Positions 6,194 through 48,964 of a stretch of 64,000 bases of DNA are shown piece after piece; the first letter of the stretch is position 1; each line of letters begins with the position of its first letter. The translations under genes and the position numbers were made by a program. The notes under the pieces were generated by a model that was not told the DNA's origin, did no database searches, and saw only the letters and a list, made by a program, of their open reading frames with translations. The stretch spans positions 2,294,001 through 2,358,000 of the forward strand of contig NC_019943.1 of assembly GCF_000327485.1 (NCBI RefSeq), in the 5' to 3' direction. The DNA comes from Methanoregula formicica SMSP (GTDB taxonomy: Archaea > Halobacteriota > Methanomicrobia > Methanomicrobiales > Methanospirillaceae).

Positions 6194-6297
6194 TCAACAC
6201 CCCCCAAGGGGACGGGGGCGTTTGTGATTCCTCCGCATTTCCTTAACGCAATACACTTACGAATTTACTCAGGTAATGCCGAGGCATCGCAACCGGG

Positions 6298-6331: not shown

Positions 6332-6449
6332 TCAGAGATCTTCAGCTCTGATGACTCCCGGGCATTCGAAGATTGGTTGCTGTTGTCCTTGTTACTAAGA
6401 GGATTCTTGAAACCTCTCCGACTCTCCGCCATCAGATTCTGAAGAATGT

Positions 6450-6953
6450 TCAGGCTAACGCCGGGACGGTGTCCGCCCAGGTCTCGACACGGGTCCGGAT
6501 TGCATCATCCGAGTACGAGGTGATGCTGACCGATTCGCGGCCGAACGTAACCATGTAAATCTCTCCGCTGGCATCGTGGCACTTCAGGGTAGCCGAGTAG
6601 GTCTCTTTGTTCGTGTCCCGGACCGGTGTTCCCCCATGAGCGGTTGCGAGGGTAGTGTTGTCGAGGAGTGCGGTTGCGCCGGCATTGAACCCGGCAACCG
6701 TGTTGAATTTTGCCGAGTCGCTTCCTACGGACTTGGCATCGTTGTCCTGGTACACGACCTTTGCCACGTAATTCTCTTTGGTCTTCTCCACCGGCGCGTG
6801 GTTGACACCAGCGCTCTCGTAGGCTGTGCAGGCAAACGGGTTGTCGGTGACGACCGACAAGACGATCGTGTTGAACGCTGTCACATTCTCGATCGGGGCC
6901 GCGAGCTTGCGGACCGCCGACTTTACTACGGTTTTCTGTACGAAATCTGCCAT
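6450..6953 (-). CDS. Hypothetical protein heading the small-gene cluster
   Basis: 167 residues from the ATG at 6953, chosen because a strong ribosome site (AAAGGAGGAAAC) sits 7 nt upstream. Not recognised. No signal peptide or membrane helix; rich in Ala, Thr, Val, Asp and Ser, with an N-terminal basic segment and alternating beta-like stretches, ending in an acidic helix (RTRVETWADTVPALA). The strong ribosome site, composition and lead position suggest an abundant structural protein, possibly of a provirus or plasmid-derived element. That role is inference. Confidence 0.55.
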   Translation of the reverse strand: MADFVQKTVVKSAVRKLAAPIENVTAFNTIVLSVVTDNPFACTAYESAGVNHAPVEKTKENYVAKVVYQDNDAKSVGSDSAKFNTVAGFNAGATALLDNTTLATAHGGTPVRDTNKETYSATLKCHDASGEIYMVTFGRESVSITSYSDDAIRTRVETWADTVPALA

Positions 6954-7070
6954 TTTATGTTTCCTCCTTTCGTTGTTTTTTTCAGCAGGGGCAAGCCCCC
7001 GGCTCGTCCCCTTCAATTTCCCGGGAGATCTGCGCAAACCTCCCGGACCGGAAGAATGTTCTCCCGGGTC

Positions 7071-7119
7071 GAAGGGCAGTTTGCACTGCCCTTCTCATCC
7101 TCCAGGTTTTGTGAAACCT
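7071..7119 (+). repeat. Two-hairpin repeat, copy 5
   Basis: Stem 1 GAAGGGCAG / CTGCCCTTC with loop TTTGCA, then TC, 7-nt spacer ATCCTCC, stem 2 AGGTTT / AAACCT with loop TGTG. The stem sequences differ from the other copies on both arms, so pairing is kept by compensating changes. It lies in the upstream region of the 6953 gene. Confidence 0.75.
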
Positions 7120-7150
7120 GTCGGAGGTCTCGGGTTCCTTTGACATACAG

Positions 7151-7165
7151 TTATACGTCGTATAA
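7151..7165. promoter_or_regulatory. Perfect palindrome in the promoter of the 6953 gene
   Basis: TTATACGTCGTATAA is a perfect 7+1+7 palindrome, AT-rich, about 200 bp upstream of the minus-strand ATG at 6953 and just beyond repeat copy 5. It could be a repressor operator overlapping a TATA box. Only the symmetry and position support this. Confidence 0.4.
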
Positions 7166-7752
7166 TCACATGGGCTTTGATTATGGAGAGGTTTTTTTTA
7201 GAAACAGAGGGAAAATTCGGCGATTCTTACGAAACGGAAGATAATTTTCAGGAATTTTCAAGGAACAAAAATGTTCCTTTCATCATGTGAAGAGCCGGTT
7301 GAAGGACGGAATACCGCCAGACGGGGACTCAGGGAATACACATTCCCCGGGTTCCGGTATCCGGAACAGGATCCTGGCCGGTCCAGGCAGATCCATTCCC
7401 GTTTTAGGGGATACTATCACCCTCATACCTCCTCGTTTGCCCGTCCAAAGAGACATAAAGAGACACGTATCCGGGTTCAGAATGCCCGGGAATATACCAA
7501 TCCGGGCCTTAATTTCCGGATTCCGGAAAAAAGAGACATGCGATTTTGCGAATGAGACACGTAAAACCTCCCACAACGACCAAACGGAGCCCTTACAGGG
7601 GAGATTTGGGAAGACCCCCGGAATTCCCCTCCGGAGAGGGATCTTCAGAAGTGAGATCCCCCTTCGGGATGTTTGAGAGGAAGATCGCCGGGGGATGTTT
7701 TTTCAGACCCCCTGTGAACATGACTCTCGCAGTGCGGGATGAGATCTCTGGA
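7166..7752. other. Gene-free stretch
   Basis: No convincing gene. It holds a small hairpin (AAGGAAC / GTTCCTT, 7260-7279) and a GC-rich stretch with CCGGGTTCCGG-like short palindromes, plus a GGGATCT / AGATCCC stem near 7638-7660. Overlapping open frames on both strands have no protein-like composition. Confidence 0.5.
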
Positions 7753-8106
7753 TTACCCTGTCGGCCTCCCGTGCCGGTCAAGCTCTATGAGACACTTGTT
7801 TTCCAGCCGGAAGAACCGCATCGATCCAAACGGGCACCAGAGCCATAGTTCCCGGAGGATCTCCGAAACCAGGTCTGCTGAGCGGAGCAGCGCGAGTGTT
7901 TCCCTCTGCTGGATCTCGACTGCGGTAAGCGGTACACGGAGCTGCCGTGTCCGCTTTACCCGGACAACGATGATCCCGCCAGGGCCGATGATTATGAAAT
8001 CCCCGGGTGCCAGAGCATCCTGCCGGAAGAAGATCACCTGTCCCCGCACCTGTGCAAGCGGGAGAGCAGCTTCAAGCGCTTTTTTCGATGGCAGTCCCCG
8101 GCTCAT
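7753..8106 (-). CDS. Hypothetical protein, possible nuclease-fold
   Basis: 117 residues. The core GDFIIIGPGGIIVVRVKR has the strand-turn-strand pattern of PD-(D/E)XK nucleases with D then (R)VK; the usual Glu of the ExK pair reads Arg, so a degenerate or inactive version is possible. Starts with an ATGA overlap on the upstream gene, third and last in the 8679-7753 operon headed by leader L1. No membrane segment. Confidence 0.55.
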   Translation of the reverse strand: MSRGLPSKKALEAALPLAQVRGQVIFFRQDALAPGDFIIIGPGGIIVVRVKRTRQLRVPLTAVEIQQRETLALLRSADLVSEILRELWLWCPFGSMRFFRLENKCLIELDRHGRPTG

Positions 8107-8342
8107 TCGGGATCCCTCATGCCCTTCGATCGCTGGGCGGGATACTTCGCATGCGGGATTGCCGGCCGCAGTTCACGCTTTATGCTCCGCGTCCGGATGC
8201 TCATGGTGTATACATGCATGAAGGTCTTCTTGATCGTTACCCGTTCCAGTTCTTCGCCAAGTATCCGGATCGCGTTCTGGATCACGTGCGGGATGATAAA
8301 GAGAGGAACATCGGGCGTAACGATCGCAGCCCTGCGGGGCAT
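8103..8342 (-). CDS. Small hypothetical protein
   Basis: 79 residues from the ATG at 8342 (MPRRAAIVTPDVPLF), one base from the end of the upstream gene and overlapping the next by 4 bp. Upstream in-frame codons read as a shadow of the preceding gene. The first half is hydrophobic/alpha-beta (FIIPHVIQNAIRILGEELERV), the rest basic. Not recognised. The tight spacing on both sides implies a three-protein complex or pathway. Confidence 0.5.
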   Translation of the reverse strand: MPRRAAIVTPDVPLFIIPHVIQNAIRILGEELERVTIKKTFMHVYTMSIRTRSIKRELRPAIPHAKYPAQRSKGMRDPE

Positions 8343-8343
8343 G

Positions 8344-8679
8344 TTATTTCCTTTGCTCACCTTCAAGCCGGCATATCCTCTGCTCCAGCCGGTTGAGCTT
8401 ACGGTTGATGTACGATGCATCCCGCTGCAGGTTATCGCTGAACCAGGCAAGCAGTTCTCCGAGATTCTTCTCGGCAAGAACCGATGCTGCCAGGATGTCG
8501 GCAGTGTCGGTCCGGCACCCGGATCTTTCGCGTGCAGCAGGCATCCCCCGGTCCGCGATGAAATGATTTTTTGAATAGTCGTTTCTTTTCCTGCCGGAAA
8601 TACCGGCTTCGTTTCCTGAGTATGCTGATTCTATGCTAACACTTCCCTTCTTATCAGCCCGGGCATGGATAATTCCCAT
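8344..8679 (-). CDS. Hypothetical protein with C-terminal coiled coil
   Basis: 111 residues. The N-terminal ~45 residues are low in structure; from about 50 on it is helical and ends in a coiled coil (INRKLNRLEQRICRLEGEQ). First gene of a three-gene unit. AT-rich sequence (ATAATTATCGTATATTG) lies directly upstream. Leader copy L1 begins about 85 bp further upstream. The true start could be the internal ATG at residue 46. Function unknown. Confidence 0.45.
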   Translation of the reverse strand: MGIIHARADKKGSVSIESAYSGNEAGISGRKRNDYSKNHFIADRGMPAARERSGCRTDTADILAASVLAEKNLGELLAWFSDNLQRDASYINRKLNRLEQRICRLEGEQRK

Positions 8680-8764
8680 AACAATATACGATAATTATCC
8701 CATGCCGGAAGGCGGACCGGGCAAAAGCAGGGTTCGTCGCCTGCTTAAAGCCCGCTATTTCCTT

Positions 8765-8878
8765 CGGGACAGCCCCCGGCTGTCCACACTGTGCATTGGC
8801 CATGTCGGAATAAACGATTTCTGTCCACGGCCTCTACACGTCCGGGCGCCAGGAAATGCGTACAGCTGGTGTGGACAA
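8765..8878 (-). repeat. Leader element copy L1
   Basis: Core of the leader family: GGACAGCC-CCC-GGCTGTCC hairpin, TGTCCAC box, TAAACGATTTCTGTCCAC, then TACACGTCC and the returning GTGTGGACA. It lacks the downstream GGGTTC/GAACCC hairpin of other copies. It precedes the 8679-7753 operon, whose products are not secreted. A further ~70 bp on its right is shared only with L3. Confidence 0.8.
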
Positions 8879-33144: not shown

Positions 33145-33388
33145 TTACCTGAGCAGGACCAGGACTTCAAGGAGTGTCTGGATATCTATTCCCGCCTGTT
33201 TCAGGATCGATTTCAATGTTTTCCGGTCAATTTCCGGATGGTCGGGGACAACAATTGTTTTGGTGTCCTCTGTATTTTTCAGGACAATATGGCTCCCTTT
33301 CTGGTGATCGATAAAGAAGCCGAGCCTTAATAAGGCGTTAATTGAGTTTCCGGGCCGGAAGAAGCGGGACCTTTTTGTTCCCGGTCAT
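33145..33388 (-). pseudogene. hicA: HicA-like toxin with a single-base frameshift
   Basis: ATG at 33388 overlaps the hicB stop (ATGA). After MTGNKKVPLLPARKL the sequence CTCAATTAACGCC puts TAA in frame; removing one A restores KLINALLRLGF and then the rest of HicA: HQKGSHIVLKN with the catalytic His, IVVPDHPEID, LKSILKQAGI. The stop is at 33145-33147. So the toxin is disabled by one inserted base, or the insertion is an assembly error. Confidence 0.7.
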
Positions 33389-33633
33389 ACTTCGACAGCG
33401 ATTTTTCGGATACTGACATGGTCCTGGTCGGGCACCTTTTTGTTATGCCGGATAAAGGATTCCAGGTATGCTTCAATCGCTTCCTTTGCGTTCGACTCCG
33501 CTTCCTCGACCGTTTTTCCCTGCGTGATGCAGCCGGGCAGCGCCGGGACGGTAACTACGTACCAGCCGTCTTCACCGGGTTCGATGACAATATTATATTT
33601 TTTCCGCATATGCCGGTGTTCCTGTACCTTCAT
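33385..33633 (-). CDS. hicB: HicB-like antitoxin
   Basis: 82 residues from the ATG at 33633 (an ATG at 33609 is also possible). The core YNIVIEPGEDGWYVVTVPAL then PGCITQGKTVEEAESNAKEA is the HicB/DUF1902 fold. No DNA-binding domain on the C-terminus, so autoregulation would need HicA. A TTTAATACC box lies ~15-25 nt before the ATG. Paired with the frameshifted hicA. Confidence 0.82.
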   Translation of the reverse strand: MKVQEHRHMRKKYNIVIEPGEDGWYVVTVPALPGCITQGKTVEEAESNAKEAIEAYLESFIRHNKKVPDQDHVSIRKIAVEV

Positions 33634-33801
33634 TGGGCGGTTGCAGGTATTAAAGGTTGATTCGGATGCGGGGGAGTGAGGGGGAATCAGGAGGGATGTA
33701 TTAACAAAATACACGATTGCATGGTTATCAGGACATAACTGTCGATGCTGAGCATTCCGCAAGAAGGATGGGCGGCCCCACACGGGATGACCGGGACGAT
33801 T

Positions 33802-34188
33802 TCAGGACTTTTGGATCTCTTCGATGACCGCTCTGAACTGCGGGAGGATCTCCGTGATAGTCTTCCACACAAGCTCGTAATCAACGGAGAAGTAGACATG
33901 TGTGAGTTTATCCCGCATGCCGGCTATCTGCCGCCATGGGATCTCCGGGTATGCACGGGTAAGGGATTCCGGGAGCATCTTGACGGCTTCGCCGATGATC
34001 AGGAAATTGTAGGTGACTGCATTCATGGTTTTTTCATCGGCAAAGAAGGATTCACCCGAAGAATCCTTACAGATTCTTCTCGTATCTCATCTCATTCGAG
34101 ATTTGATAAAGGACATTCCTTTGGTAAAAGAATCGATCCGGTCAAGGGCACCGATAATATCTTTCAGGAGCAGGCGTTCGTCCCTCAT
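33802..34188 (-). pseudogene. HEPN (DUF86) toxin interrupted by a two-hairpin repeat
   Basis: ATG at 34188 overlaps the MNT stop at 34185. The first 27 codons (LLKDIIGALDRIDSFTKGMS) and the part from ~34047 down (FFADEKTMNAVTYNFLIIGE, then RDKLTHVYF with the catalytic R-x4-6-H) are one DUF86 HEPN ribonuclease. Between them ~60 bp of repeat copy 6 keep the frame but carry a TGA at 34087-34089. An internal ATG at 34026 could restart a 74-residue fragment that has the active-site motif but lacks helix 1. Confidence 0.75.
34058..34102 (+). repeat. Two-hairpin repeat, copy 6 (inside the HEPN gene)
   Basis: Stem 1 GAAGAATC / GATTCTTC with loop CTTACA, then TC, 7-nt spacer GTATCTC, stem 2 ATCTC / GAGAT with loop ATTC. 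Both stems differ from other copies on both arms. Within a coding gene, which shows that the repeat moves or is inserted. Confidence 0.82.
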
Positions 34189-34478
34189 ACATACACGACA
34201 TCCTGCATGACTGCGTCGCGCATCTCGCTCCGGAGGCCGCCTTTGGAAACCAGGTCGATCTTCATCCCGAAACTGTCTTCGAGATATTGCCAGAGGCCGA
34301 TGTAGGTCAGGAGGTCTGCACGGGACCCGAATTCGACAAGGAGATCGATGTCACTGCCGGGATCGTTTTCGCCGCGTGCAACGGATCCGAAGATGCCGAT
34401 CTCCCGTACATCATAGCGGGCCGCAAGTTCTCCCTTGAGACTTTTCAGCCGCACCATGACTTCCTGTCGTGTTATCAT
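34185..34478 (-). CDS. MNT nucleotidyltransferase antitoxin
   Basis: 97 residues, minimal nucleotidyltransferase: IGIFGSVARGENDPGSDIDL (GSxxRGxxxxxSDxD) and a third acidic residue in KIDLVSKGG. MNT antitoxins neutralise HEPN toxins by adding AMP to a tyrosine near the HEPN active site. Here the following HEPN gene is interrupted, so the antitoxin may now be without a target. Operon order antitoxin then toxin with a 4 bp overlap. Confidence 0.88.
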   Translation of the reverse strand: MITRQEVMVRLKSLKGELAARYDVREIGIFGSVARGENDPGSDIDLLVEFGSRADLLTYIGLWQYLEDSFGMKIDLVSKGGLRSEMRDAVMQDVVYV

Positions 34479-34561
34479 ATTCTCTTATCACTCGGTAGAG
34501 CGGGATGGGGGATAAGTGTTTTGTTAAAAAAAGTACCGGATACTATTCGATACAGAGCGTA

Positions 34562-34935
34562 TCACACCGCAAACACCCGGGCTTTCCGGACACGGGCGAG
34601 GTAGTCCTCCCTCTCAATCTTTTTCCCTTTCCCGATTATCTCAAGGTCATTCCTGACCGATTTGACAAGCGAGATGATTTTCTTCGGCCGGCCTTTTCCT
34701 TCATGCTGTGCTGCCGAAACCAAAACCCATCGCTGTTCTTCCATATATTTCAGGGCCGTACTCACCTGCGGCTGCGAGAGCCCGGTGCCGAGTTCAATTG
34801 CCTGCATCGTGCCTTCTTTAATATTCAGGAGATATACAAGGGTCCGTGCGACCGGTTTCTTTGTGCCGAAATGGATCAATACGTTCACGAACTCTTCGTC
34901 CTTTTTGGAAAAACCTGGACTGCTTTCATTTTCAT
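34562..34935 (-). pseudogene. Winged-helix regulator (paralogue B), frameshifted near the start
   Basis: From a GTG at 34888 there are 108 residues (MNVLIHFGTKKPVARTLVYL, PQVSTALKYMEEQRW, GKGRPKKI), a winged helix paralogous to 31643 and 58507. Codons further upstream (SKKDEEF) match the paralogue at 58881 but lead to a stop; the natural ATG at 34935 (MKMKAVQVF) is in another frame, with the shift in the run CCAAAAAGG at about 34900-34907. Either frameshifted or started at the GTG. Palindromic TATA region at 34954. Confidence 0.6.
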
Positions 34936-37498: not shown

Positions 37499-38941
37499 TC
37501 ATTCTTTTTGAATTAAGATTCGTGCCCTTGAATTTCCTTTTTCACTAAGTTGTTTTAATAATACTTCATGGGCTTTCCTCACACCTTTCCCCCCACCTAA
37601 AAATGCAAAAGGCGAAGTATTTTTATCCCAATCAAAATCCTGGAGGGGCTCGATGAATTTTTTTACAGATTCAACATCGAATGGATCGATACCATCCTCA
37701 AGACACCAGGAATAAACATCTCTGGCGAGGTAATTAAAAGCATAAATCGAGGTTGTTCGGAGCATCAGGTATTGTTTCCATGTCTGTTGATCAAATGTTT
37801 CAGGAAACATTTCTCTAATGCATCCCCAATAATTGACTAAGAAGGTCGTCTTTTGATCAAAACTCAATTCTTTGAACTGGGTATTATCGAATAATGGTTT
37901 TAATGATGATACAAAGGAGAATAAAGGAACCGGATGACCATTGTTCAGGATTCCACCGAGATTGATTAGTCCCTTAAACGGCGATGACTCTTTATTTAAT
38001 TCATTCACAACGGGAACAATTTCTGTCCGCCATTTTTCTTTTTCGATAATTGGTATGCCAGTTATTCCGGCCTTTATCGTTTTATATGCTAATTCATCTT
38101 TTAATGATGAACTGACGGGTTTTTGGGTTTTATTGATAATGAAAAAGAAGGCACCTTCAAGGTCGGATTGTTTTATTTTCAAAGCTCCTTTCGATTCTCT
38201 TTTCAATTTTTCAACTATTGCTTTTGTATCGACAAAAACGATCGGAACTTCGAATGATAAGAGCTCTGTGTATTTTTTTATCTGTTCATCACGATCGATC
38301 ATCGAATGCCTTGATTGAAGGCGTTTTATCTCTTTGTAAATCTCTTCGAAACCACCGGTTCTTTGCTGACCATCCAAAATTGTAATTGATCCTGGTTTCA
38401 ATGGCAACTCCAATAATTCGATATCATCACTAATTGGGGTAACTATTGCTTCACTAAAACTGGCAAAAAGTGCCGGCACTATTGATATCGAACATCCTTC
38501 GAGATATTTACGAATTTCATTGGTTTTATCCCGAAATTTTTCTCTCTGATAACCTTCCAATGTTTCATCTCGCCAGAGATTTGATGTAGCGAGTAATAAC
38601 AGGTCTTTTGCCTCGATCTTCCCAATATATAGAGGCATACCTTTTTGCACAATTTTCATTACTTTAATTTTTACTGATACCTGTGAGATTTTCTTCCAAA
38701 CATCTTCGAGATGTTTTGATTGAATTTTAGGGTAATTCCGGTAAATATCTATGATTTCAACAATACTGAGTTTGTTAAAGTCTTTTGAAATTTCATGGTG
38801 AGCAATTTTTTCAAGAGTGTCATTCATTTTATCCGGGAAAAAAAGTGCCGGATTATTCCAACAAGTGTCACAGACATATCGACCATCATAGGGGCCGTGG
38901 CGTTCCCCATTAATCTCAAAACCACAGGAAGAACAAATCAT
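37499..38941 (-). CDS. DGQHR-domain (DndB-like) protein with N-terminal zinc ribbon
   Basis: 480 residues. Starts with a zinc ribbon (CSSC ... CDTC, residues 3-32). The middle has the DGQHR-family signature as ILDGQQRTGGFEEI with a following long alpha-beta region (VPIVFVDTK, FFIINKTQKPV). DGQHR proteins include DndB, the regulator of DNA phosphorothioation, and ParB-like DpdB of 7-deazaguanine DNA modification. Its ATG overlaps the stop of the radical SAM gene (ATGA). Convergent with 36739-37479. A DNA-modification role is likely by family and context. Confidence 0.78.
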   Translation of the reverse strand: MICSSCGFEINGERHGPYDGRYVCDTCWNNPALFFPDKMNDTLEKIAHHEISKDFNKLSIVEIIDIYRNYPKIQSKHLEDVWKKISQVSVKIKVMKIVQKGMPLYIGKIEAKDLLLLATSNLWRDETLEGYQREKFRDKTNEIRKYLEGCSISIVPALFASFSEAIVTPISDDIELLELPLKPGSITILDGQQRTGGFEEIYKEIKRLQSRHSMIDRDEQIKKYTELLSFEVPIVFVDTKAIVEKLKRESKGALKIKQSDLEGAFFFIINKTQKPVSSSLKDELAYKTIKAGITGIPIIEKEKWRTEIVPVVNELNKESSPFKGLINLGGILNNGHPVPLFSFVSSLKPLFDNTQFKELSFDQKTTFLVNYWGCIREMFPETFDQQTWKQYLMLRTTSIYAFNYLARDVYSWCLEDGIDPFDVESVKKFIEPLQDFDWDKNTSPFAFLGGGKGVRKAHEVLLKQLSEKGNSRARILIQKE

Positions 38942-40023
38942 TTTTTTGCTCCATTTTTCTTTTCTTCATATAACTCAAAAGCTTCTTGAAATCCCGATGC
39001 ATTATTGAATTTATCTACTAATCCCTGATATGCAGGAAAAGCTCCACCATATCCGATTACACGTCGTGCACGTTGGACTAATTCAATTTTCTGCGCATCC
39101 CAATTCGGGGAGACATACGAATTTTTCTCAATGGTAAAAAGAGACTCATATCTCATCGGATAACAAACAGTTCCCCAATTAAGAATTTCACGTACTCGAT
39201 TAAGAAATTCATCTGGTGTCTCTCTGTAATTGAAAAGAGTATAGACAAAAATATCCCGTTTTTTAATACCGACGGCGAGTAAACGCTCAACTGCTCTTTT
39301 TACAAATTTTTGTTGATCATGAGAATCATATGCAAGTCGAATAGTAGAATCAAGTTTTAATGATGCAATCATTTTTGCAACGGGTTCAGTGATGAGTTTT
39401 GCATCAATACCTTGATTAAAATCTACTTTTTTATCGAAATCGATAAGTTCCTTGAATATATCCATTCGATATTTATTCGCGAGGAAATTGTTATCAAAGA
39501 AAATAATTTTTGAATGCCGATCCAGTACAAAGGGCTGGATGCTTTTTTTCAGAGAATTCATTTTACCTTCGAGTCGAGGAACCGCACAAAAATCGCATTT
39601 ATTGCAGCAACCTCTTGACGAGAAAATTATACTTCCGTCCCATTCTGGTACTAAATCATAATCTGGTAAAATGTTCTCTGCGTGAGAACAGAGACCTTGA
39701 TATATCCTATCCGCACCGGAAAGATTTGCATGATCGGGAAGAAGGGATGAATATATACCGCCAAGCCAAACTTCCGACTTTGGAAATTCTTTTTTGTAAA
39801 ATGAAACAGCCTCCCAAACGGGTTTCCATGCCCATGAAAAAAGACTCGTGACGTATATTTTTTGAGGAGTCTTTTTTGGTATTCTTTGATCCTTTTTTTC
39901 AAAAGCAATTAATTCAGTAGTATCGCCTTTTGTCTTATGATATGCAGAGAGCTTTAAGAGACCAATTGGAGGGAATTTGGAATAATACGCAGGTTCAACG
40001 AGAAGAATATGATTGGTCATCAC
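38938..40023 (-). CDS. B12-binding-like radical SAM enzyme
   Basis: 361 residues. N-terminal Rossmann-like region (LLVEPAYYSKFPPIGLLKLS) like cobalamin-binding domains but lacking an obvious DxHxxG. Radical SAM cluster motif C139-x3-C143-x2-C146 (SSRGCCNKCDFCAVPR), later IIFFDNNFLANKYR and VDFNQGIDAKL typical of B12-radical SAM and MiaB-like barrels. First gene of a two-gene unit with the DGQHR protein; divergent from the helicase. Should do a radical methylation or sulphur insertion; its substrate may be DNA. Confidence 0.8.
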   Translation of the reverse strand: MMTNHILLVEPAYYSKFPPIGLLKLSAYHKTKGDTTELIAFEKKDQRIPKKTPQKIYVTSLFSWAWKPVWEAVSFYKKEFPKSEVWLGGIYSSLLPDHANLSGADRIYQGLCSHAENILPDYDLVPEWDGSIIFSSRGCCNKCDFCAVPRLEGKMNSLKKSIQPFVLDRHSKIIFFDNNFLANKYRMDIFKELIDFDKKVDFNQGIDAKLITEPVAKMIASLKLDSTIRLAYDSHDQQKFVKRAVERLLAVGIKKRDIFVYTLFNYRETPDEFLNRVREILNWGTVCYPMRYESLFTIEKNSYVSPNWDAQKIELVQRARRVIGYGGAFPAYQGLVDKFNNASGFQEAFELYEEKKNGAKK

Positions 40024-40150
40024 TGATAGTTTAGTGATCTCCCTTATTTAAGATCTTTTATTTGAAGGATCCTATCATTTGATTTTGAATATCGTTATCT
40101 ACAGCAGGGATCAAAATTCAGTTAATATCAAAAGTGATATTTGGTGTTTT

Positions 40151-42268
40151 ATGGCTTTTATCGATTTAAATTTAAAAAAAACATATTCATCTGATGTAGA
40201 TGATATCTTACGTACCTTTTTTATCCCAGTACTAAAAGAATCGAAGGATTACAAAAGATTAACCGGCTTTTTTTCCTCTTCCAGTTTGGCAGCTGCTGCT
40301 GAAGGTTTTGGAGGACTAATTGAAAATGACGGCTTTATCAAAATGGTAATGTCTCCAAAAATTAGTTATAAAGATTTTGAAATCATGAAAGCCGTCAATA
40401 ACGATCCACAAAAATTTGCCGAAGCTAAAATGTTACCATACTTAGAAAATATTGAGGACGAATTTACACGCGACCATTTTTTTGCACTTGGATGGATGTT
40501 AGCTAATGAGAAAATAGAAATCCGAGTGGCAATTCCTTTTGATAAAAGTACTCAAGAAATGATTTCTAAGGATGATGACCCTTCAAGTATTTTTCATCAG
40601 AAAGTAGCAATTTTTACTGATGCGGAAGGAAATCGAATTTCATTTAGTGGATCAGTTAACGAATCAGCGAGTGGATGGCAAAATAATATTGAGGAAGGAA
40701 AAGTTTTTCGAAGTTGGGAACCAGGTCAGATTGATTATTTAAAATCAGATATTGAAAAATTTGATCGCTTTTGGAATGATCAATCTCCTCGTACAATTAT
40801 CTTTGAATTACCTCAGGCAATTAAAAAGGGATTCATAGATATTGCACCAAAGAAAAAAACCGAGATATCAAAAATATTAGAACGGTGGGAAAGTCCTAAA
40901 AAGTCCTCAATAAACCTTTTTGATTACCAAACTGTCGCGATTAAAAATTGGATAAAGAATGATTATAAAGGCATTTTTGAAATGGCCACAGGAACGGGTA
41001 AGACTTTTACAGCATTGGGGTGTGCGAAATATGTTATTGAAGAAAATGAATATATTTTTGTCGTAATTGCATGCCCATATAAGCATTTGATTCAACAATG
41101 GAGTCATGAAATTCAAAAATTTGGATTACGATATGATAAGTTGATTATTTCGGATAGTAGCAATAGTCATTGGAAAGATGAATTAACAAATGCACTTATA
41201 GAACAGAAATTAAAACGATTGAAAATAATAATTGTTTTAACAACTCATCGAACTTTCGCATCTGATTCTTTTCGCAATATCGTACAATTGGAGTCAGATA
41301 CAAATGTAATTTCTTTTCTTATTGCTGATGAAGTCCATGGGATAGGGTCTGATTTTCAAAAAAGAGGCCTAGATGAATACTACAAATATCGTCTTGGATT
41401 AAGTGCAACCCCAGAACGATTTTTCGATGACGATGGAACAAATTTATTACTTGACTATTTCGGGCCAACAGTATATGAATTCACATTGAAAGATGCATTA
41501 ACTAAGATCAACCCGGCAACAAATGATTTTTATTTAACTCAATACCGCTATTTTCCAATATTTGTTAGACTTTCGAGAGAAAACTTAGAAGATTACATAT
41601 CTCAGACAAAAAAAATTGCACTAGTATATTCAAAAACCAAAGATCCTGCTGAGGAAAAACATATACTTACTCAACTCTTGAATAAGCGCGCAAATATCGT
41701 AAAAAATGCAGATGAGAAATTAGGGCAATTAAGAAAAATTCTTGATGGTTTTTCACAATCTCAAAAATGGACGATAATTTACTGTACACCACAACAAATT
41801 GACTCGATAATGAAAATTTTATCTCAATACTCATTTATCACCCATAGATTCACAATGGAGGAAAAAACGAGTGTGAACAAGGATTATGGTGGAATTAGTG
41901 AGAGAGAGTATATTTTAAGGGAATTCGCGAACGGAACGTATCAAATTCTAGTGGCGATGAAGATTTTAGATGAAGGAGTTGATGTGCCTCCTGCACGAGT
42001 TGCAATTCTTATGGCTAGCAGCGGAAATCCTAGAGAATACATCCAACGAATTGGCCGAGTTATTAGAAAATTTCCGGGGAAACAGGAAGCTGTAATTTAT
42101 GATCTAATTGTTGTTCCCACAAACAAGGATATGCCTCCAGAGCTTCAAGTTATCGAGAGAAAAATCTTCGATAAACAATTAAGACGGTGCGAATATATCT
42201 CGAAATTAGCACTAAATAGTAGTCAGGCTTTAAGCGAAATTTATTCATTTAATCCGTCACACGACTAA
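40151..42268 (+). CDS. PLD-nuclease/SF2 helicase fusion
   Basis: 705 residues from the ATG at 40151 (MAFIDLNLKKTYSS). N-terminal phospholipase-D domain with one HKD-type motif: FHQKVAIFTDAEGNRISFSG, SVNESASGW. From ~260 an SF2 helicase: Walker A ATGTGKT, LIADEVHGIG, GLSATPERFFDD, and motif VI QRIGRVIRKFPGK. Resembles the restriction helicases reported in archaeal dnd loci and other DNA-modification systems. Separated from the divergent radical SAM gene by an AT-rich promoter region. Very low GC. Confidence 0.82.
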   Translation: MAFIDLNLKKTYSSDVDDILRTFFIPVLKESKDYKRLTGFFSSSSLAAAAEGFGGLIENDGFIKMVMSPKISYKDFEIMKAVNNDPQKFAEAKMLPYLENIEDEFTRDHFFALGWMLANEKIEIRVAIPFDKSTQEMISKDDDPSSIFHQKVAIFTDAEGNRISFSGSVNESASGWQNNIEEGKVFRSWEPGQIDYLKSDIEKFDRFWNDQSPRTIIFELPQAIKKGFIDIAPKKKTEISKILERWESPKKSSINLFDYQTVAIKNWIKNDYKGIFEMATGTGKTFTALGCAKYVIEENEYIFVVIACPYKHLIQQWSHEIQKFGLRYDKLIISDSSNSHWKDELTNALIEQKLKRLKIIIVLTTHRTFASDSFRNIVQLESDTNVISFLIADEVHGIGSDFQKRGLDEYYKYRLGLSATPERFFDDDGTNLLLDYFGPTVYEFTLKDALTKINPATNDFYLTQYRYFPIFVRLSRENLEDYISQTKKIALVYSKTKDPAEEKHILTQLLNKRANIVKNADEKLGQLRKILDGFSQSQKWTIIYCTPQQIDSIMKILSQYSFITHRFTMEEKTSVNKDYGGISEREYILREFANGTYQILVAMKILDEGVDVPPARVAILMASSGNPREYIQRIGRVIRKFPGKQEAVIYDLIVVPTNKDMPPELQVIERKIFDKQLRRCEYISKLALNSSQALSEIYSFNPSHD

Positions 42269-42323
42269 ATAAACATAAATAGAGAATAATCTAACCAAGA
42301 GAATAGTCCTGGAAAGTGTTAAA

Positions 42324-42491
42324 ATGGAACAAGGTCTTGAACGAATTAAAAAGTTAATTAAATCAAATTGTAAGAATGACGATGAGATGTTTCGTTTTTT
42401 CGATGACTTCATCGAAAAAGAATTGTATGTTGGATATTTTTCTGACGATCTGAAAAAATTAATTGAAAAATATGCTCCAAAAACCAGATGA
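42324..42491 (+). CDS. 55-residue helical protein between helicase and DndD-like gene
   Basis: ATG at 42324, TGA at 42489-42491. Highly charged, two helices (LERIKKLIKSNCKNDDEMFR, DDFIEKELYVGYFSDDLKKL). 5 bp before the next start, so translationally coupled. Unknown; short helical partners are common in such systems. Confidence 0.5.
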   Translation: MEQGLERIKKLIKSNCKNDDEMFRFFDDFIEKELYVGYFSDDLKKLIEKYAPKTR

Positions 42492-42495
42492 TATC

Positions 42496-44457
42496 ATGCG
42501 CATCCAAAGTCTCAAAATAAAAAATTATAGGCAATATCGTGACGTTACTATTGATTTTTCAAAAAAGGATAAATCAGATTTACAGGTTTTTTTGGGAAAA
42601 AATGGGATCGGAAAAACTAACATATTGAATGCAATAAATTGGTGCCTATACGGAGATGAACCGCATTTATCCGATGAATCGACATCATTACCAATCTTGA
42701 ATACTATTGCATTTCAAAATGCAAAAGAAAATATTCCTGAAGAAGTTGAAGTCCAGCTAACTGTACTCACTGATAAAGGAAATCCAACAATCTTTTCTCG
42801 AATTGAGCCTTTTTTAGTAAGAAAAAATACCATACAATCACAAAAACAACAATTCAAAGTAATAATCCAGGATAAGAAATTGAATAACAAAATCCTCGAT
42901 AAAGAAAAATCTGAAAGAGCTATTGAAAACTTTGTTCCAAAAACGATCAGGGAGTACTTTTTTTTCGACGGGGAGCGATTAGACAATTATTTCAAAGTAC
43001 CTGGTGAAAATATCCAAAATGCAATTAAACAAATATCAAAAATTGATGTCTTGTTCCAGATGCGAGAGCGGATAGAGACAATCTCAAAGAGTTATAAGAA
43101 AGAAGCAGGAAAAGTCAGCACCGAAATTAATACTCTTCAATCTCAACTTGAAGAGGAGAATAGTTCTCTCAAACTTATTTCTTATCAATTAACAGAAACG
43201 AACACTCAATACGAAATATCAAAAAAGGAAAAACAAAAAATTAGCGAAGGTCTTCTTAAATTTCCGAATGTAAGAGACTTAGAAACAAATAAAATTTCAT
43301 TAGATCAGAAAATTGAAGAAAATTCAAGAAAACTTGAAGAGAAAAAAAGTAAAAAGACGTCAATTCTTCATAAACAATTTGTTTTAGTCACCAGTTTGAC
43401 TGCGCTAAATTCGACAATACAGATGATTAATGAAAAACGGAAAAAAGGTGAAATACCCCCGTTCACGGATAAAGAGAAATTGAACTATATTCTAAAAGAA
43501 AATTTTTGTGGGATTTGCGGCAGAGAACTAGATTTCAATTCAAAAAAACATATTGAAGAAATTATTGAAAAGTTGCCATTTTCTACAAAAATAGCAACCA
43601 CATTGTCAAATCTTGAACAGCCAATTAATATGCTCATTTCACGTATCAGCGAGAACAAAGAAGAATTAAATGAAATTTCACAAGAAATTGAAGAATTTGA
43701 AGTTTCAATCGAAAATGACGATGAGATATTAAATGATATTAAATCAAAATTAGCCAATTATGACACGGAAAAAATTAGAGATTTAGAACGAAAACGAGCA
43801 GCTTTTGAAGAAGCAAGTCTCGCACAAAAAGAACGAATCGGTCGTTTAACCGCCAAAATTGATAAAATACAAGAAGAAGTTAAAAATTTAAATGATAAGA
43901 TTGCTGTTGAAGGGAAAAAAAATACAAAAGCAAAAATATTCATGCAAAAGGTCGAATTTTGCGATAAAGCAAAAGAAATCCTTACAACAACAATCAATCA
44001 GAGGTTAAATGAAATTCGGGAAAAAATTCAGGAAGAAACTAACACAATTTTTTTCAAGTTAGTTTGGAAGAAAGAAACTTTCAACCAAATCACAATCGAT
44101 GATAATTACAACGTTCAGATAACAAGTTGTGATACTAATTTACCTATGAGAGGATCTTTAAGCAAAGCTGAAAATGAATTGTTAGCTCTCTCTTTTACAT
44201 TAGCACTCCACAAAGTATCAGGTTTTGATGCTCCAATTTTAATTGATACTCCTGTTGCTCGAGTATCCGACGATCAAAGAGTAAATTTTGGGGACGTTTT
44301 AGCAAAAATTAGTCAGGATAAACAAATTATTCTTTTATTCACACCTGCAGAATATTCTCCAGACATTATGGAAGTCCTTGAACCGGAGGTAAGTACAAAA
44401 TTTATCTTTGAGATGACCTCTGATGAAAAACAGACCCTGATAACGGTGGTAGAATGA
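42496..44457 (+). CDS. DndD-like AAA/SMC-type ATPase
   Basis: 653 residues from the ATG at 42496 (MRIQSLKIKNYRQY). Walker A GKNGIGKTNILNAINWCLYG, the DndD-like EYFFFDGERLDNYF, long coiled coils (about 195-300 and 390-500), a central zinc-hook-like CGIC and, at the end, an ABC signature region (GSLSKAENELLALSF) and Walker B ILIDTP. DndD provides ATPase/DNA-nicking activity in DNA phosphorothioation. Overlaps the next gene by 4 bp. Confidence 0.82.
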   Translation: MRIQSLKIKNYRQYRDVTIDFSKKDKSDLQVFLGKNGIGKTNILNAINWCLYGDEPHLSDESTSLPILNTIAFQNAKENIPEEVEVQLTVLTDKGNPTIFSRIEPFLVRKNTIQSQKQQFKVIIQDKKLNNKILDKEKSERAIENFVPKTIREYFFFDGERLDNYFKVPGENIQNAIKQISKIDVLFQMRERIETISKSYKKEAGKVSTEINTLQSQLEEENSSLKLISYQLTETNTQYEISKKEKQKISEGLLKFPNVRDLETNKISLDQKIEENSRKLEEKKSKKTSILHKQFVLVTSLTALNSTIQMINEKRKKGEIPPFTDKEKLNYILKENFCGICGRELDFNSKKHIEEIIEKLPFSTKIATTLSNLEQPINMLISRISENKEELNEISQEIEEFEVSIENDDEILNDIKSKLANYDTEKIRDLERKRAAFEEASLAQKERIGRLTAKIDKIQEEVKNLNDKIAVEGKKNTKAKIFMQKVEFCDKAKEILTTTINQRLNEIREKIQEETNTIFFKLVWKKETFNQITIDDNYNVQITSCDTNLPMRGSLSKAENELLALSFTLALHKVSGFDAPILIDTPVARVSDDQRVNFGDVLAKISQDKQIILLFTPAEYSPDIMEVLEPEVSTKFIFEMTSDEKQTLITVVE

Positions 44458-44948
44458 CAATAGACGTTGAAAAAATATACATTGACAACGATGACCGAGT
44501 CATATATGATAACTTAGAGAAAGAACTCGAAATCAAAAAAATAAATAAAAAAGATCTCTTCATGTTTGCTCTTTCGACGGGATTTAAGAAAGGGATACAT
44601 CCACATATTGTAAAAAAACAGGAATTTTTTTGGACCAACAACTTACGAGATGAGGACGAGATAATAATCAAATCAATTGCATTAAACGTTACAAAAAATT
44701 TCGACGTCTTACAAAATCATGAGGAATTAGTGAAAATTGTGCAAGAATATGCTCACGGTGGAATCCAAATTATTAAAGAAAAACTTGCACGACCGGGTAG
44801 TTTCATCAAACAAATGGAGAAGGAAATTGAAGAAGAATATCAATTCTGTTTCGATCAACAAAATAAACGAGAAGATATCATACCTTCCGCGGGATCAGAC
44901 ATAGAAAAAATTGACCATCTGATATCAACTTTCAAACCAAATAAATAA
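44454..44948 (+). CDS. Small partner of the DndD-like ATPase
   Basis: 164 residues, helical, no catalytic motif. Pattern DLFMFALSTGFKKGIHPH and a later VKIVQEYAHGGIQIIKEKL resembles small proteins described as dnd-associated (about 150-170 residues), not DndE, which is shorter. This assignment is from memory of the pattern and is uncertain. Starts inside the DndD-like stop (ATGA), so the two are made in fixed ratio. Confidence 0.55.
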   Translation: MTIDVEKIYIDNDDRVIYDNLEKELEIKKINKKDLFMFALSTGFKKGIHPHIVKKQEFFWTNNLRDEDEIIIKSIALNVTKNFDVLQNHEELVKIVQEYAHGGIQIIKEKLARPGSFIKQMEKEIEEEYQFCFDQQNKREDIIPSAGSDIEKIDHLISTFKPNK

Positions 44949-45081: not shown

Positions 45082-45966
45082 ATGACGGTAGAAGAAAAGT
45101 TTGGAATTGTTGTCATGCTCGATGCTCTCGGCGTTTCAAATTTTACTATTGAAGAATGTAAACAATTCATACAAAATTTCGATGAAAATATTTCAGACCT
45201 CCAGAAAATAAATAAAAGCATTTTTTCAATGGTTGAGACACATAAAAATAAAGAAAAGGCTAGGGTAGTTTCAAATTCTCTAAAAAATGTAGGGTTCTCA
45301 CAATTTGGGGATACACTAGTCATGGCATGGCCGATTGACAGAAAAGAGGACATCCATAATTCCTCATTAATGCTTTCAATCGTAATGATGTTGAGTTCTT
45401 TGATAGGTAATAGTTTAGATCGCAAAATTCCACTCCGTGGTTGTATTTCGGTTGGAGAATACGTATGGGCTGAGAATAATAGGACTATCCTCGGTCCTGC
45501 TATATTCGATGCAAGTAGCTGGTATAATTCTGCTGATTGGTTCGGAATTATCTTCTCCCCAAAAACACACTTTTGGCTTGGTGCATTATCAGAAGGGATG
45601 AAGAAATCCATCGATGATGCATTATTAATTCCAATGTGGAAGGTCCATATTTTTGAGTATCCTGTGCCTTTGACGAGACATGCCGGTTCCAATAGTACTA
45701 ATCAAATTTTTTCTGTAGTAGGCTGGCCTTATTTTTTTTATTACCATCAAGACAAGAATACATCTCCCCGAAAGAAATTATGTCAATTTTTATTTAGTAT
45801 GCCTATGCCTAAAGGGACCGAATCGAAATATAAGAACAGCGCGGATTTTTTTAATTGGTATGAAACGGAAATATATCAGAAAAATCCACGACGAATTGGT
45901 GAAATAAACCACCCAATTCTACACGAAGACAATAGTACGAAAAGAAAAAGTTCTCGTAAGGATTAA
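45082..45966 (+). CDS. Class III nucleotidyl cyclase-like protein
   Basis: 294 residues. GIVVMLDALGVSNF (first metal Asp), QFGDTLVMAW (the GDxxMA motif with the second Asp) and PLRGCISVGEYVW form the catalytic half of a class III cyclase; the family's later substrate Asp/Lys and Asn/Arg pairs are not obvious. No sensor or membrane domain. Stand-alone cyclases of this size act in phage defence (Pycsar PycC), where a neighbouring effector reads the cyclic nucleotide. No known effector type is adjacent; a trypsin-like protease is next, convergent. GGAGGA ribosome site. Confidence 0.65.
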   Translation: MTVEEKFGIVVMLDALGVSNFTIEECKQFIQNFDENISDLQKINKSIFSMVETHKNKEKARVVSNSLKNVGFSQFGDTLVMAWPIDRKEDIHNSSLMLSIVMMLSSLIGNSLDRKIPLRGCISVGEYVWAENNRTILGPAIFDASSWYNSADWFGIIFSPKTHFWLGALSEGMKKSIDDALLIPMWKVHIFEYPVPLTRHAGSNSTNQIFSVVGWPYFFYYHQDKNTSPRKKLCQFLFSMPMPKGTESKYKNSADFFNWYETEIYQKNPRRIGEINHPILHEDNSTKRKSSRKD

Positions 45967-45993
45967 CGAAAAATGATATTTTATCTTGCAATA

Positions 45994-46824
45994 CTATTTT
46001 TTTTGTGAATAACAGTGTAAGCATTCTCCAAATTTTGGGAGATTTGGAAACTTTTGACAAGCTCGATTTAATTCTGAAACATACGTCGCATGAGAAAAAG
46101 TTGTTGTATTTTGTAATTGCGGGAAATTTGGAATTGGTTCGGTCCGGACAGAAGTTACGATTCCAATGACCTGTCCCGTCCGAAGACTAAATAATGGCCC
46201 ACCAGAATTACCTGGGCCAACATAATTATCGAATTCCATAATGAGGGTTTCATTGCTCTCAACCCATATCGAACTTAAATGAGCACTTGTTAATCGGTTT
46301 ACAAAATGATAATTGGGTAATCCATTTTGATAAGTTCCCTCAAATCCGATGAATGGATATCCCATTGTAAATACAGGGTCTCCGATTAAAAAATCTAAAC
46401 CCAGAGGAATTGGTTTGGGTTTTAAGTGAAAAAGAACCTCCGGAGTATCGATCTCAAAAACGCAAATATCCTGACGTGGAAGGCGTTTATAAGATCTCAA
46501 TCCGGAATAAATTTTTATTTCGCTCACTGGAAAAGGACGAAGATCAGCAGGTGTTTCTGCCTGAGGGATTAAAAAGAGAGCAATATCAATATTTTTCTCT
46601 ATCTCGGGAAATGCATGATTAGCTGTAACCAGCTGAGTTATATCTTTGTCAATTTTAAGAATAAACGCCGTTGCAGCTGGAAAAATGAATACCTTTTTTC
46701 CACGTCTGCACCAGGGAATAAGATATTTCGAATTAATTGGAATGTTTTCAGTTTTATTAAAAATATGACCAATTGGAATAACAGAATTGCTATATTTTAA
46801 AAAAAGTTCAGTTCGGTTTTTCAT
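45994..46824 (-). CDS. Trypsin-like serine protease, cytoplasmic
   Basis: 276 residues, no signal peptide. Triad regions: ITQLVTANHAFPEI (His), NIDIALFLI (Asp) and YVGPGNSGGPLFSLRTGQVI (Ser). A C-terminal region with CQKFPNLPKFGECLHC could bind a metal. Stand-alone trypsin-like proteases are frequent in archaeal and bacterial defence islands, some as effectors activated by a nucleotide or by phage proteins. It ends 27 bp from the convergent cyclase gene, so a functional link is possible but not shown. Confidence 0.78.
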   Translation of the reverse strand: MKNRTELFLKYSNSVIPIGHIFNKTENIPINSKYLIPWCRRGKKVFIFPAATAFILKIDKDITQLVTANHAFPEIEKNIDIALFLIPQAETPADLRPFPVSEIKIYSGLRSYKRLPRQDICVFEIDTPEVLFHLKPKPIPLGLDFLIGDPVFTMGYPFIGFEGTYQNGLPNYHFVNRLTSAHLSSIWVESNETLIMEFDNYVGPGNSGGPLFSLRTGQVIGIVTSVRTEPIPNFPQLQNTTTFSHATYVSELNRACQKFPNLPKFGECLHCYSQKK

Positions 46825-46942: not shown

Positions 46943-48964
46943 TTACACATCAATCATTACTTTCATGCCAAAACTTCCAACCGCATCAATTTCCATCACC
47001 CCCGCCCTCACCAATGCCTCATACGTCGTCTTCATCCCAACCTCATTAGGCACATAGATGAAGAACCCATCCCGACCTCGTGTCAATAACACCCGATAAC
47101 TATTCACCCGTAGCCGATGCGGATCCCGTGCCTTCGATCGTTTCGCCGGCGGACTCTTCCACTCCCCAGCCCACGTGAAATCATCACCCCAGCAAATGAT
47201 CGGGAAATCCAACTCTAAACCCTGACACGAGAATTCCGTTGCAACATCGCGAAGAGCACAACACGAAGAAAACGACGTTGGGGGATCATTATACCATGGA
47301 CCTTCTCGCATGTTTTTCGTGTAATTGAATTCATTGTGAATTCCCCAGCGAGGAAGATTCTTGGCTTTCGATGAGGCAAGCAATCCAAACCGTTTGTCCT
47401 CTTGGCCCCGGTATCGCTCCTTGACATAATTGGTTGCAACGTTGATGTCCTGCGTGATGTACACGTCAAATCCTTGTTTGATAACACGCTCCGCGAGATC
47501 CTTCGCGGTGACAAGATCGCCTTCGAGAATCGCGGAGACCCACGTGGCCACATCTTCGGCAATATGGGAACGCAGTGTGATTGTAAGATCGAGAACATCA
47601 TTCGTTACGATTTTTTTTGCTGCGGGAAATTTGTCAGCAATCTTCTTCGGGCAATGGACGATGCAGGACTTCTGCATCCATGCAAGAGCATCATTCCATT
47701 GCGGAAGGCCGGATTCTTCACCAAGATGGATCTCTTGGCCTTCACCGATGAGAGCAACCATCAAGGCCCATGAGTTCATCCGCTCTGCAAGACGAAGGAA
47801 ATCTTCCGGCTCACTCGTAGCATGACCCCGCTTCTCTGCTACACGTTCGGCATCCCAGGCTCGTTGTGCTTCATCGTACACCCAAATATGTTCATGCGGA
47901 ATCTTCGCTGTCGAACCACCATACTCTTTGAGAAAACCGTGGACATCCTGAACGAAGATTTTGTACTTCAGCGCATGTTGGAGTACCTTCACGAGAGGGC
48001 CGTTGCCGGAAAGAAAGACGGCTGTGTTCCGAAGATTATTCGATTGCTTTCTTTTCTGTTTACCATATACGAGGGAACCGGAATCAGCAACAGCAAGAGC
48101 CGGTCCGTTCTGTGATGGTGTAAGATATGAAGAATCAACAGATGTGGAAGCAGAACTGGAAGGTGATGAATCGATATGATTCTCATAGACTAATTGAATG
48201 CCAACAAGCGTCTTTCCCGCACCGGGAACTCCCGTCACCAGAGCGAGATGCAATTCATTGTTTGTCTGTGCCTGTTTTGCAATGGAAATTAGTTCGGCAA
48301 TTGTCTGAGGGATGCCAGCACTCTGGGCTCGTTTGATCTGAGGAAGCGGTTGTTTCTCCCAAATCGTACGAGCGGCTTGAATCAGGGAGGGTAAGGGAGC
48401 ATATTCCGCATGAATCCACGTAAGAGGATCGATCAGAGAACAGTTCACTCCAATCTCTTCAGTCTTGAAAATATCCGCAATATGATCCGGTGAGACCACT
48501 AAGACCTCTTCATCATGTCGAAGAAGATCCTTCGCACGAGCGAGAACAAGAATTGGATGAACGGGATAGTGTTGTGATGCTGCGTGATAGTGCTTGAGGT
48601 CACGGGCATATGCTGCAACCTGATCGCTGTGAGCTGCTAAGAGCGTTGCATAATCTTTGAATTCAAGAACAAAGATGCTCGGCCCTAAGATGATAACATC
48701 AGGCCTTCGGCCTCGCTCACGAGGCAACTCATACTCAAAGATGATCGAAAAATTTTCAATCGTAGGCTTTTGCTGAACAATGAGTTTGAGTTCTCTTTGG
48801 AGAATATCGAATGAGTGATCCCATGCAAGAATCTGGCTCTGATCAGCGGGGGAATTCATGCAGCGGAGGTGATGATTCTGAAGAGAGGTGAGCCAATCCT
48901 GTTTTGGTATACGAAGAAAATTTTGTATTGTACCTGACCAGCCACAAGGATTATTGAGATCCAT
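46943..48964 (-). CDS. PD-(D/E)XK nuclease-DUF2075 helicase
   Basis: 673 residues. N-terminal nuclease with ERGRRPDVIILGPSIFVLEF (Asp89, Glu101, Lys103), then from ~240 a P-loop of the DUF2075 type: VTGVPGAGKTLVGIQLVY, IWVYDEAQRAWD and a C-terminal VNSYRVLLTRGRDGFFIYVP. DUF2075 proteins are SF1-like ATPases commonly found in defence islands. GC content is intermediate, higher than in the genes to the left, so it may have been acquired separately. Confidence 0.85.
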   Translation of the reverse strand: MDLNNPCGWSGTIQNFLRIPKQDWLTSLQNHHLRCMNSPADQSQILAWDHSFDILQRELKLIVQQKPTIENFSIIFEYELPRERGRRPDVIILGPSIFVLEFKDYATLLAAHSDQVAAYARDLKHYHAASQHYPVHPILVLARAKDLLRHDEEVLVVSPDHIADIFKTEEIGVNCSLIDPLTWIHAEYAPLPSLIQAARTIWEKQPLPQIKRAQSAGIPQTIAELISIAKQAQTNNELHLALVTGVPGAGKTLVGIQLVYENHIDSSPSSSASTSVDSSYLTPSQNGPALAVADSGSLVYGKQKRKQSNNLRNTAVFLSGNGPLVKVLQHALKYKIFVQDVHGFLKEYGGSTAKIPHEHIWVYDEAQRAWDAERVAEKRGHATSEPEDFLRLAERMNSWALMVALIGEGQEIHLGEESGLPQWNDALAWMQKSCIVHCPKKIADKFPAAKKIVTNDVLDLTITLRSHIAEDVATWVSAILEGDLVTAKDLAERVIKQGFDVYITQDINVATNYVKERYRGQEDKRFGLLASSKAKNLPRWGIHNEFNYTKNMREGPWYNDPPTSFSSCCALRDVATEFSCQGLELDFPIICWGDDFTWAGEWKSPPAKRSKARDPHRLRVNSYRVLLTRGRDGFFIYVPNEVGMKTTYEALVRAGVMEIDAVGSFGMKVMIDV

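Follow-up and report, generated by a model that had tools for sequence, protein, structure and literature searches.

A DGQHR protein and a radical SAM enzyme form a recurring gene pair beside PbeABCD in Methanoregula formicica and are a candidate DNA-modification module

The haloarchaeal restriction module PbeABCD was reported to partner DndCDEA (Xiong et al. 2019, PMC6459918); a later reading treats it as a CxC ABC-ATPase/DndE system, its helicase being of the HKD-nuclease type (PMC10853773). Solitary PbeAC pairs, lacking a modification partner, made up 165 of 553 cases (about 30%), and the authors were undecided between loss of function and use of a different mark (PMC6459918). Canonical DISARM comes with the DrmM methyltransferase (PMC9142583). 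Proteins of the DGQHR superfamily also act around DNA marks: DpdB is an ATPase which inserts dPreQ0 into DNA together with DpdA (PMC12839542), and SspE, the reader of a DNA mark, carries a DGQQR motif required for GTP (NTP) hydrolysis (PMC9646914). Here we analyse a locus of Methanoregula formicica SMSP (complete 2.82-Mb genome) in which a DGQHR protein and a radical S-adenosylmethionine (SAM) enzyme stand next to a PbeABCD module. The locus was studied within a stretch of 64,000 nucleotides (NC_019943.1, positions 2,294,001 to 2,358,000), hereafter the window, and all coordinates are window positions. A first-pass annotation had placed six open reading frames between 37499 and 44948, with a 4-bp overlap between the DGQHR and radical SAM genes, and had taken them for one new defence system. 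All six are present, overlap included; however, one half of the set is the known PbeABCD, and what is new is the other half, a portable DGQHR-radical SAM unit.

The forward-strand half was assigned by profile matches and gene order. Its first gene (40151..42268, open from 40079, with the ATG at 40151 as likely start) encodes a phospholipase D (HxK) domain joined to a superfamily 2 helicase, which matched PbeA in PADLOC with E=5e-223 and scored 419 bits, under the cut-off of 600, with TIGR04095. A 55-residue protein, placed as PbeB by position and size, follows at 42324..42491. Next comes a DndD/CxC-type ABC ATPase with a zinc hook (42496..44457, likely start ATG 42496), which matched PbeC in PADLOC (E=6e-121) and the DndD model (E=5e-43), and whose zinc-hook cysteines are conserved, as CGIC in the window and CxC in relatives. 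The last gene (44454..44948) overlaps PbeC by 4 bp and encodes a 164-residue protein, the DndE cognate by position; its match to TIGR04062 (dnd_assoc_4, E=6e-9) is below cut-off, its position fits PbeD, and PbeD hidden Markov model matches are present in other Pbe loci. The gap between PbeA and PbeC also holds a reading frame of 61-76 residues in all six of the other radical SAM-linked Pbe loci examined. Judged by these matches, the helicase, the 55-residue protein, the DndD-like ATPase and the small partner are the published PbeABCD restriction module. The claim that the set lacks DndC was borne out in the complete host genome, where no match passed the cut-off of 290 bits, the best reaching 34; DndA was not searched for, as housekeeping IscS/NifS would match.

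The slot of the modification genes is filled here by the reverse-strand pair, in agreement with the earlier view of a modification-based locus without dndC. P0001 (37499..38941), with an N-terminal zinc ribbon and a DGQQR motif, belongs to the DGQHR/DndB superfamily and is predicted to be an NTPase or to assist the radical SAM enzyme in modification. The latter, P0002 (38938..40023, 360 residues from the ATG at 40020), has a cobalamin-binding-like Rossmann N-terminus and a CxxxCxxC barrel, and is the proposed DNA-modifying enzyme. An intergenic region (40024..40150) separates it from the divergent PbeA gene.

Comparison with related genomes revealed that the restriction module next to the pair has been exchanged. 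A relative of P0002 was detected in 10 of 100 such genomes. In G036 and G005 (the latter corresponding to Methanoregula sp. UBA247), both of the same genus, and in G073, of the same order Methanomicrobiales, a pair of about 480 and 360 residues adjoins drmA-drmB-drmC and a gene encoding about 1,110 residues, so that its neighbour there is DISARM and not Pbe. At the DNA level, the left flank of G036 aligns with window 5447-8787, and the pair itself aligns over 37568-40071 with 77% identity, including some 50 bp upstream. On its right, the exchanged segment is bounded by a Schlafen-group-3 helicase gene (46943..48964, reverse strand; PF09848 E=2e-72, PADLOC PDC-S41 E=5e-129), which also aligns with G036, the DNA match joining window 46989-48955 to 1670-3510 of locus L118. 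Between the radical SAM and Schlafen genes, the window holds PbeABCD and two further genes, and G036 holds drmX-drmC-drmB-drmA; both versions are AT-rich (32-37% GC versus 48-51% in the flanks). In the window the AT-rich block spans 36.7-46.9 kb, with 33.8% GC versus 51% in its flanks, which supports the proposal that it was acquired by transfer. We concluded that window and G036 represent the same chromosomal site, with PbeABCD swapped for drm genes; either the pair was kept while the restriction module changed, or segments recombined. The first 50 bp or so upstream of the radical SAM gene are kept in the DISARM-linked relatives, similarity ending at about 40074; within them, an A+T box (CTTATTTAAG) some 25 nt ahead of the start may serve the pair as an archaeal promoter.

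Beyond this site, an alignment-based scan for the radical SAM enzyme, with one genome per species (84,980 species), returned 80 loci, to which plasmid and phage records added more; partner sets were assigned by clustering the reading frames of the neighbourhoods. A DGQHR gene was paired with the radical SAM gene in L029, L030, L031, L140, L154 and L157, the 4-bp overlap recurring in L029, L030, L140 and L154, which speaks against a chance arrangement. Besides the window, the enzyme accompanied PbeABCD in four bacterial (L054, L062, L068, L069) and two archaeal loci (L135, L140), and DISARM, class 2 included, in L029-L031, L066, L070, L071 and L155-L161. Several of these arrangements are tight single-strand operons, namely radical SAM-DGQHR-PbeA-PbeC-PbeD in L140 and PbeA-PbeC-PbeD-radical SAM in L062, L068 and L069; likewise, drm operons end in the radical SAM gene, as DrmA-B-C-E-radical SAM in L071 (DrmE by PF24957) and DrmA-B-C-X-radical SAM in L158 and L160. 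Other partners were NurA-HerA, joined by GHKL in L035-L037, L073, L086, L099, L110 and L115 but not in Marinitoga camini virus 1; a set of helicase, ParB_N proteins and a protein of about 140 residues (about 29 loci); and PIN-GHKL on rhizobial and sphingomonad plasmids, with a DGQHR-radical SAM-GHKL operon.

The six genes are therefore no fixed system, since their halves recur separately with other partners: the pair with DISARM, its radical SAM enzyme with NurA-HerA or helicase-ParB sets, and Pbe with Dnd or a methyltransferase. The complete gene content was found again in one other archaeal locus (L140), where the arrangement differs, all genes lying on one strand. The first-pass annotation had named independence of the halves as evidence against its proposal; independence was found, and a swappable modification module explains it better than unrelatedness of the halves. 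In a quick tree of 102 radical SAM relatives, with SH-aLRT support only, accounting for the 7 Pbe-linked rows took 7 changes and for the DISARM link 6 or more, and the window enzyme nests between two DISARM-linked ones. These counts imply repeated exchange of effector modules. The DGQHR-radical SAM pair is a recurring, mobile two-gene unit, which behaves genetically like a DNA-modification module.

Such a module should occupy the place of other modification genes, and a survey of 393 Halobacteriota genomes, with PbeA in 30 and DrmA in 19, is consistent with this. Among the 30 PbeA genomes, DndC was over cut-off in 13 (on another contig in G145), nine more had an N4/N6 or C5 methyltransferase nearby, three had an adjacent radical SAM gene (window, L135, L140), and G262 had a radical SAM fragment on another contig. 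The drm cluster contained or adjoined a radical SAM gene at 9 of 19 DrmA loci, and a methyltransferase gene at 5. Within the flanks examined, DndC or a methyltransferase was present at 0 of 12 radical SAM-bearing Pbe or DISARM loci versus 27 of 37 others. A Chloroflexota sample of 10 Pbe loci gave one radical SAM gene, two DndC and at least one methyltransferase, with no overlap. Six genomes, bacterial or archaeal, that carry radical SAM-Pbe or radical SAM-DISARM loci all lacked DndC over cut-off.

P0001 matched the DGQHR model TIGR03187 (E=4e-25) and the DndB family PF14072 (E=4e-10), both above cut-off. Its superfamily assignment holds, the motif itself reading DGQQR (residues 190-194) and not DGQHR as first named. 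With the Dnd-associated model TIGR04172 it scored 21 bits against a cut-off of 450, and with the DpdB model NF041060 39.9 bits against 300, so that it is neither a DndB orthologue nor a DpdB equivalog by these models. Its AlphaFold model is mediocre (pLDDT 77); Foldseek gave nothing significant with it (top match SspE, E=0.3), and no conclusion on the fold was drawn. A PDB sequence search with the DGQHR profile yielded no convincing match. Because of the DpdB/DpdA and SspE cases, the association of a DGQHR protein with an enzyme that modifies DNA has precedent, and by analogy P0001 may help to write or read a mark. Two other DGQHR arrangements were noted. In L154 (9276-14300), which is in the same genome as L140, a second radical SAM-DGQHR pair is followed by a 780-residue DGQHR protein, with no Pbe gene in the stretch examined; in L177 (7687-14375), from a Chloroflexota, a DGQHR protein without radical SAM enzyme adjoins PbeA and PbeC.

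P0002 matched the radical SAM family PF04055 weakly (E=0.03), and its CxxxCxxC motif is invariant in 49 relatives, in which C139, C143, C146, G88, G89, L8, F62, D177, N178 and N179 do not vary. The AlphaFold (AF2) model is confident (pLDDT 92.9). The structure match suggested at first pass gave, as best Foldseek hits, the cobalamin-dependent TsrM, MtaB, MiaB, AprD4 and CysS, with an identity of only 12-14% to the TsrM/CysS-type matches; a PDB sequence search with the radical SAM profile found no convincing match to any solved chain. The SxL-GG sequence is a signature of cobalamin domains, and GG88-89 with the TSLF segment of P0002 resembles it; the corresponding family, PF02310, was matched at just E=0.004, in a relative. 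The fold of the N-terminal Rossmann domain fits TsrM and CysS, and also AprD4 and MiaB, and in AprD4 this kind of fold does without cobalamin. Radical SAM enzymes inserting sulphur (MiaB, LipA, BioB) use an additional Fe-S cluster. The three cysteines of CxxxCxxC are the only conserved ones in the P0002 family, the three further N-terminal cysteines that hold the second cluster in methylthiotransferases (MiaB/MtaB/RimO) not being conserved. This is evidence against a second cluster of the MiaB kind, and MiaB-type sulphur chemistry was rejected on this ground. By fold and conserved residues, P0002 most resembles cobalamin-dependent class B enzymes. The earlier annotation had offered sulphur insertion or methylation; the former is disfavoured by the missing cysteines and the latter favoured by the cobalamin-radical SAM-like fold, so that carbon methylation appears likelier than sulphur insertion, and methyl transfer is, with moderate confidence, our best single guess for the reaction. 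No PADLOC model, viperin or other listed defence radical SAM enzyme included, matched P0002 or the two relatives tested.

We propose, with a probability of roughly 0.6, that the locus is a two-module antiviral system of the restriction-modification type, in which the DGQHR-radical SAM pair marks self DNA in place of phosphorothioation or methylation. The DGQHR protein, as predicted NTPase of the DndB/DpdB superfamily, and the radical SAM enzyme would jointly place a chemical mark on host DNA, most likely by methylation of an unreactive position on a base, sugar or phosphate, with bound cobalamin. The pair would thereby stand in for DndCDEA or a methyltransferase. PbeABCD, the known effector, would use its helicase and its ABC-ATPase/DndE-like DNA scanner to attack or block DNA in which no host mark is read. 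Several observations weigh against this proposal. The pair and PbeABCD are divergently oriented in the window and do not form a single operon, and adjacency is weak evidence when taken alone because defence genes cluster in islands. No module was recognisable around 40 of the 102 radical SAM relatives, and DGQHR is present at only 30 of these 102 loci, GHKL ATPases or ParB_N proteins replacing it elsewhere. The slot may also be empty, as five Pbe and five DISARM loci of the survey had no recognised modification gene, and a C5 methyltransferase and a radical SAM gene coexist in the DISARM neighbourhood of L106 (Methanobrevibacter). Finally, the Fisher p values for the exclusion (0.014 for Pbe, 0.033 for DISARM, 7e-6 combined) ignore phylogeny.

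Viruses also carry the enzyme. A single-sequence scan of viral stretches with P0002 found no relatives; the alignment-based scan did, in 324 of 600 candidate stretches. Among the best 80, whose neighbourhoods were examined, none had a PbeC or DISARM gene, five had the helicase-ParB set, and 25 had a DNA methyltransferase within 6 kb of the radical SAM gene. Such proximity, suggestive only, is as expected if viruses disguise their DNA with the radical SAM enzyme. More tentatively, and at somewhat under even odds, the enzyme with its variable ATPase partners (DGQHR, GHKL, ParB_N) could install a new radical-made DNA mark, either methylating a carbon or altering the backbone, for instance by P-methylation; this mark would serve as self-mark for at least four to five unrelated modules (PbeABCD, DISARM, NurA-HerA, helicase-ParB, PIN-GHKL) in Archaea and Bacteria, and be borne by viruses as protection.

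Other explanations are less probable. The pair might constitute an independent defence system, one that produces, say, a viperin-like modified nucleotide to stop viral polymerases, and merely neighbour others in islands, as defence genes do. The variety of effector sets near the enzyme (at least five unrelated ones, sometimes none) and the L154 pair, accompanied only by the long DGQHR protein, would fit; the exclusion with methyltransferase and DndC and the placement inside drm and pbe operons would be unexpected for a bystander, and no PADLOC model recognises the enzyme, so we hold this to be unlikely. We give slightly less credit to modification of a protein or RNA, whereby the enzyme would mature or regulate the restriction complex or alter a tRNA. 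RNA enzymes (MiaB, MtaB) and small-molecule enzymes are indeed among the closest folds, and peptides are frequent radical SAM substrates; however, what Pbe, DISARM, NurA-HerA and helicase-ParB have in common as a target is DNA, with no shared protein, DNA methyltransferase genes are often found close to the viral copies, and the second Fe-S cluster of the MiaB type is not seen.

That PbeABCD is here solitary, inactive or mark-independent, with an irrelevant pair beside it, would agree with the solitary PbeAC pairs of PMC6459918 and the five surveyed Pbe loci lacking a modification gene. It appears very improbable, as a radical SAM gene adjoins three of the 30 archaeal Pbe modules, versus about 0.05 of 30 expected by chance in a rough estimate, and no fewer than four bacterial ones. 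Least probable of all is a sulphur-based mark, the pair performing phosphorothioation or base thiolation without DndA/DndC: although Pbe was described together with phosphorothioation (PMC6459918) and DGQHR proteins are grouped with DndB, the genome is without DndC and the enzyme family without cysteines for an extra cluster. Marking of self DNA by the DGQHR-radical SAM pair is the explanation we prefer.

Some neighbouring genes and further radical SAM loci deserve mention. The two other genes of the AT-rich block (45082-46824) encode a 294-residue protein that belongs to no family and a protease of trypsin type (PF13365), and G036 has neither at this site. Left of the block (33385-34888) are short genes resembling, by eye, HicB, HEPN and nucleotidyltransferase toxin-antitoxin parts. 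Schlafen-type helicases directly adjoin drm genes in G036 (next to drmA) and L163, the drm operon of L066 includes a NERD-helicase gene, and the Schlafen helicase may be an accessory of these systems. The gene of about 1,110 residues in Methanomicrobiales drm clusters occupies the drmE position (L029 10053-13382, L030 9335-12685, L157 14773-18102), and the L030 copy gave no Pfam or PADLOC match. NurA-HerA-GHKL ATPase-radical SAM genes form four-gene operons in L035, L036, L037, L073, L086, L099 and L110, with a large opposite-strand gene in L035-L037; this operon looks like a further uncharacterised defence system. The order ParB_N, protein of about 140 residues, SNF2-like helicase, ParB_N was seen beside radical SAM-GHKL at 16 loci (L021, L028, L067, L075-L077, L080, L085, L092, L094-L098, L109, L112); the set is widespread in Proteobacteria, its helicase is nearest ZorD/DpdE in PADLOC, and no PADLOC system name fits. 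At four loci (L045, L046, L053, L061), a family of about 330 residues without Pfam match lies between the GHKL ATPase and radical SAM genes. Two candidate DGQHR relatives were rejected: genes of about 330 residues (A8) beside radical SAM genes, by profile comparison, and genes of 395 and 565 residues beside a 604-residue radical SAM protein, which resemble NurA/HerA, in line with the annotation of Marinitoga camini virus 1.

Searches of open-licence papers that would link radical SAM enzymes to DGQHR/DndB, to DISARM or to anti-phage DNA modification gave no description of the pair. It offers a concrete candidate partner for the PbeAC pairs reported without modification genes, and its radical SAM gene also takes the methyltransferase position in DISARM, which points to a portable marking unit overlooked by standard defence-finding models, PADLOC having none for this enzyme. 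If the mark is radical-made, it would be a further chemistry beside methylation, phosphorothioation and 7-deazaguanine.

Compared with known systems, the locus is closest to DndCDEA-PbeABCD (PMC6459918; PMC10853773), with which it shares PbeA, PbeC, reading frames at the PbeB and PbeD positions and the order A-B-C-D; it differs in having the DGQHR-radical SAM pair in the slot of DndCDEA. To the Dnd phosphorothioation system itself it is linked by the membership of P0001 in the DndB superfamily (PF14072), and separated by the host's want of DndC and by P0001 not being a DndB orthologue. The DGQQR motif is common to P0001 and the NTPase domain of SspE, and no SspABCD homologues were recognised at the locus. 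As in the Dpd 7-deazaguanine system, a DGQHR protein appears to be combined with an enzyme that modifies DNA and with restriction genes that vary; the proposed modifier is, however, a radical SAM enzyme and not a tRNA-guanine transglycosylase (DpdA), of which none was recognised beside the pair (a genome-wide search was not made), and the DpdB model stays far under cut-off. No drm genes occur in the window, whereas relatives build the pair, or the radical SAM gene alone, into drm clusters of the DISARM class 2 type (drmE, drmMII, drmA, drmB, drmC), and no DrmM was found where the radical SAM gene is present (L029, L030, L031, L155-L161). Finally, the P0002 family differs from the cobalamin radical SAM methyltransferases TsrM and CysS in occurring in defence loci, cobalamin binding being here only predicted, and is like them in its overall fold, its CxxxCxxC cluster and the GG of the cobalamin-type Rossmann domain.

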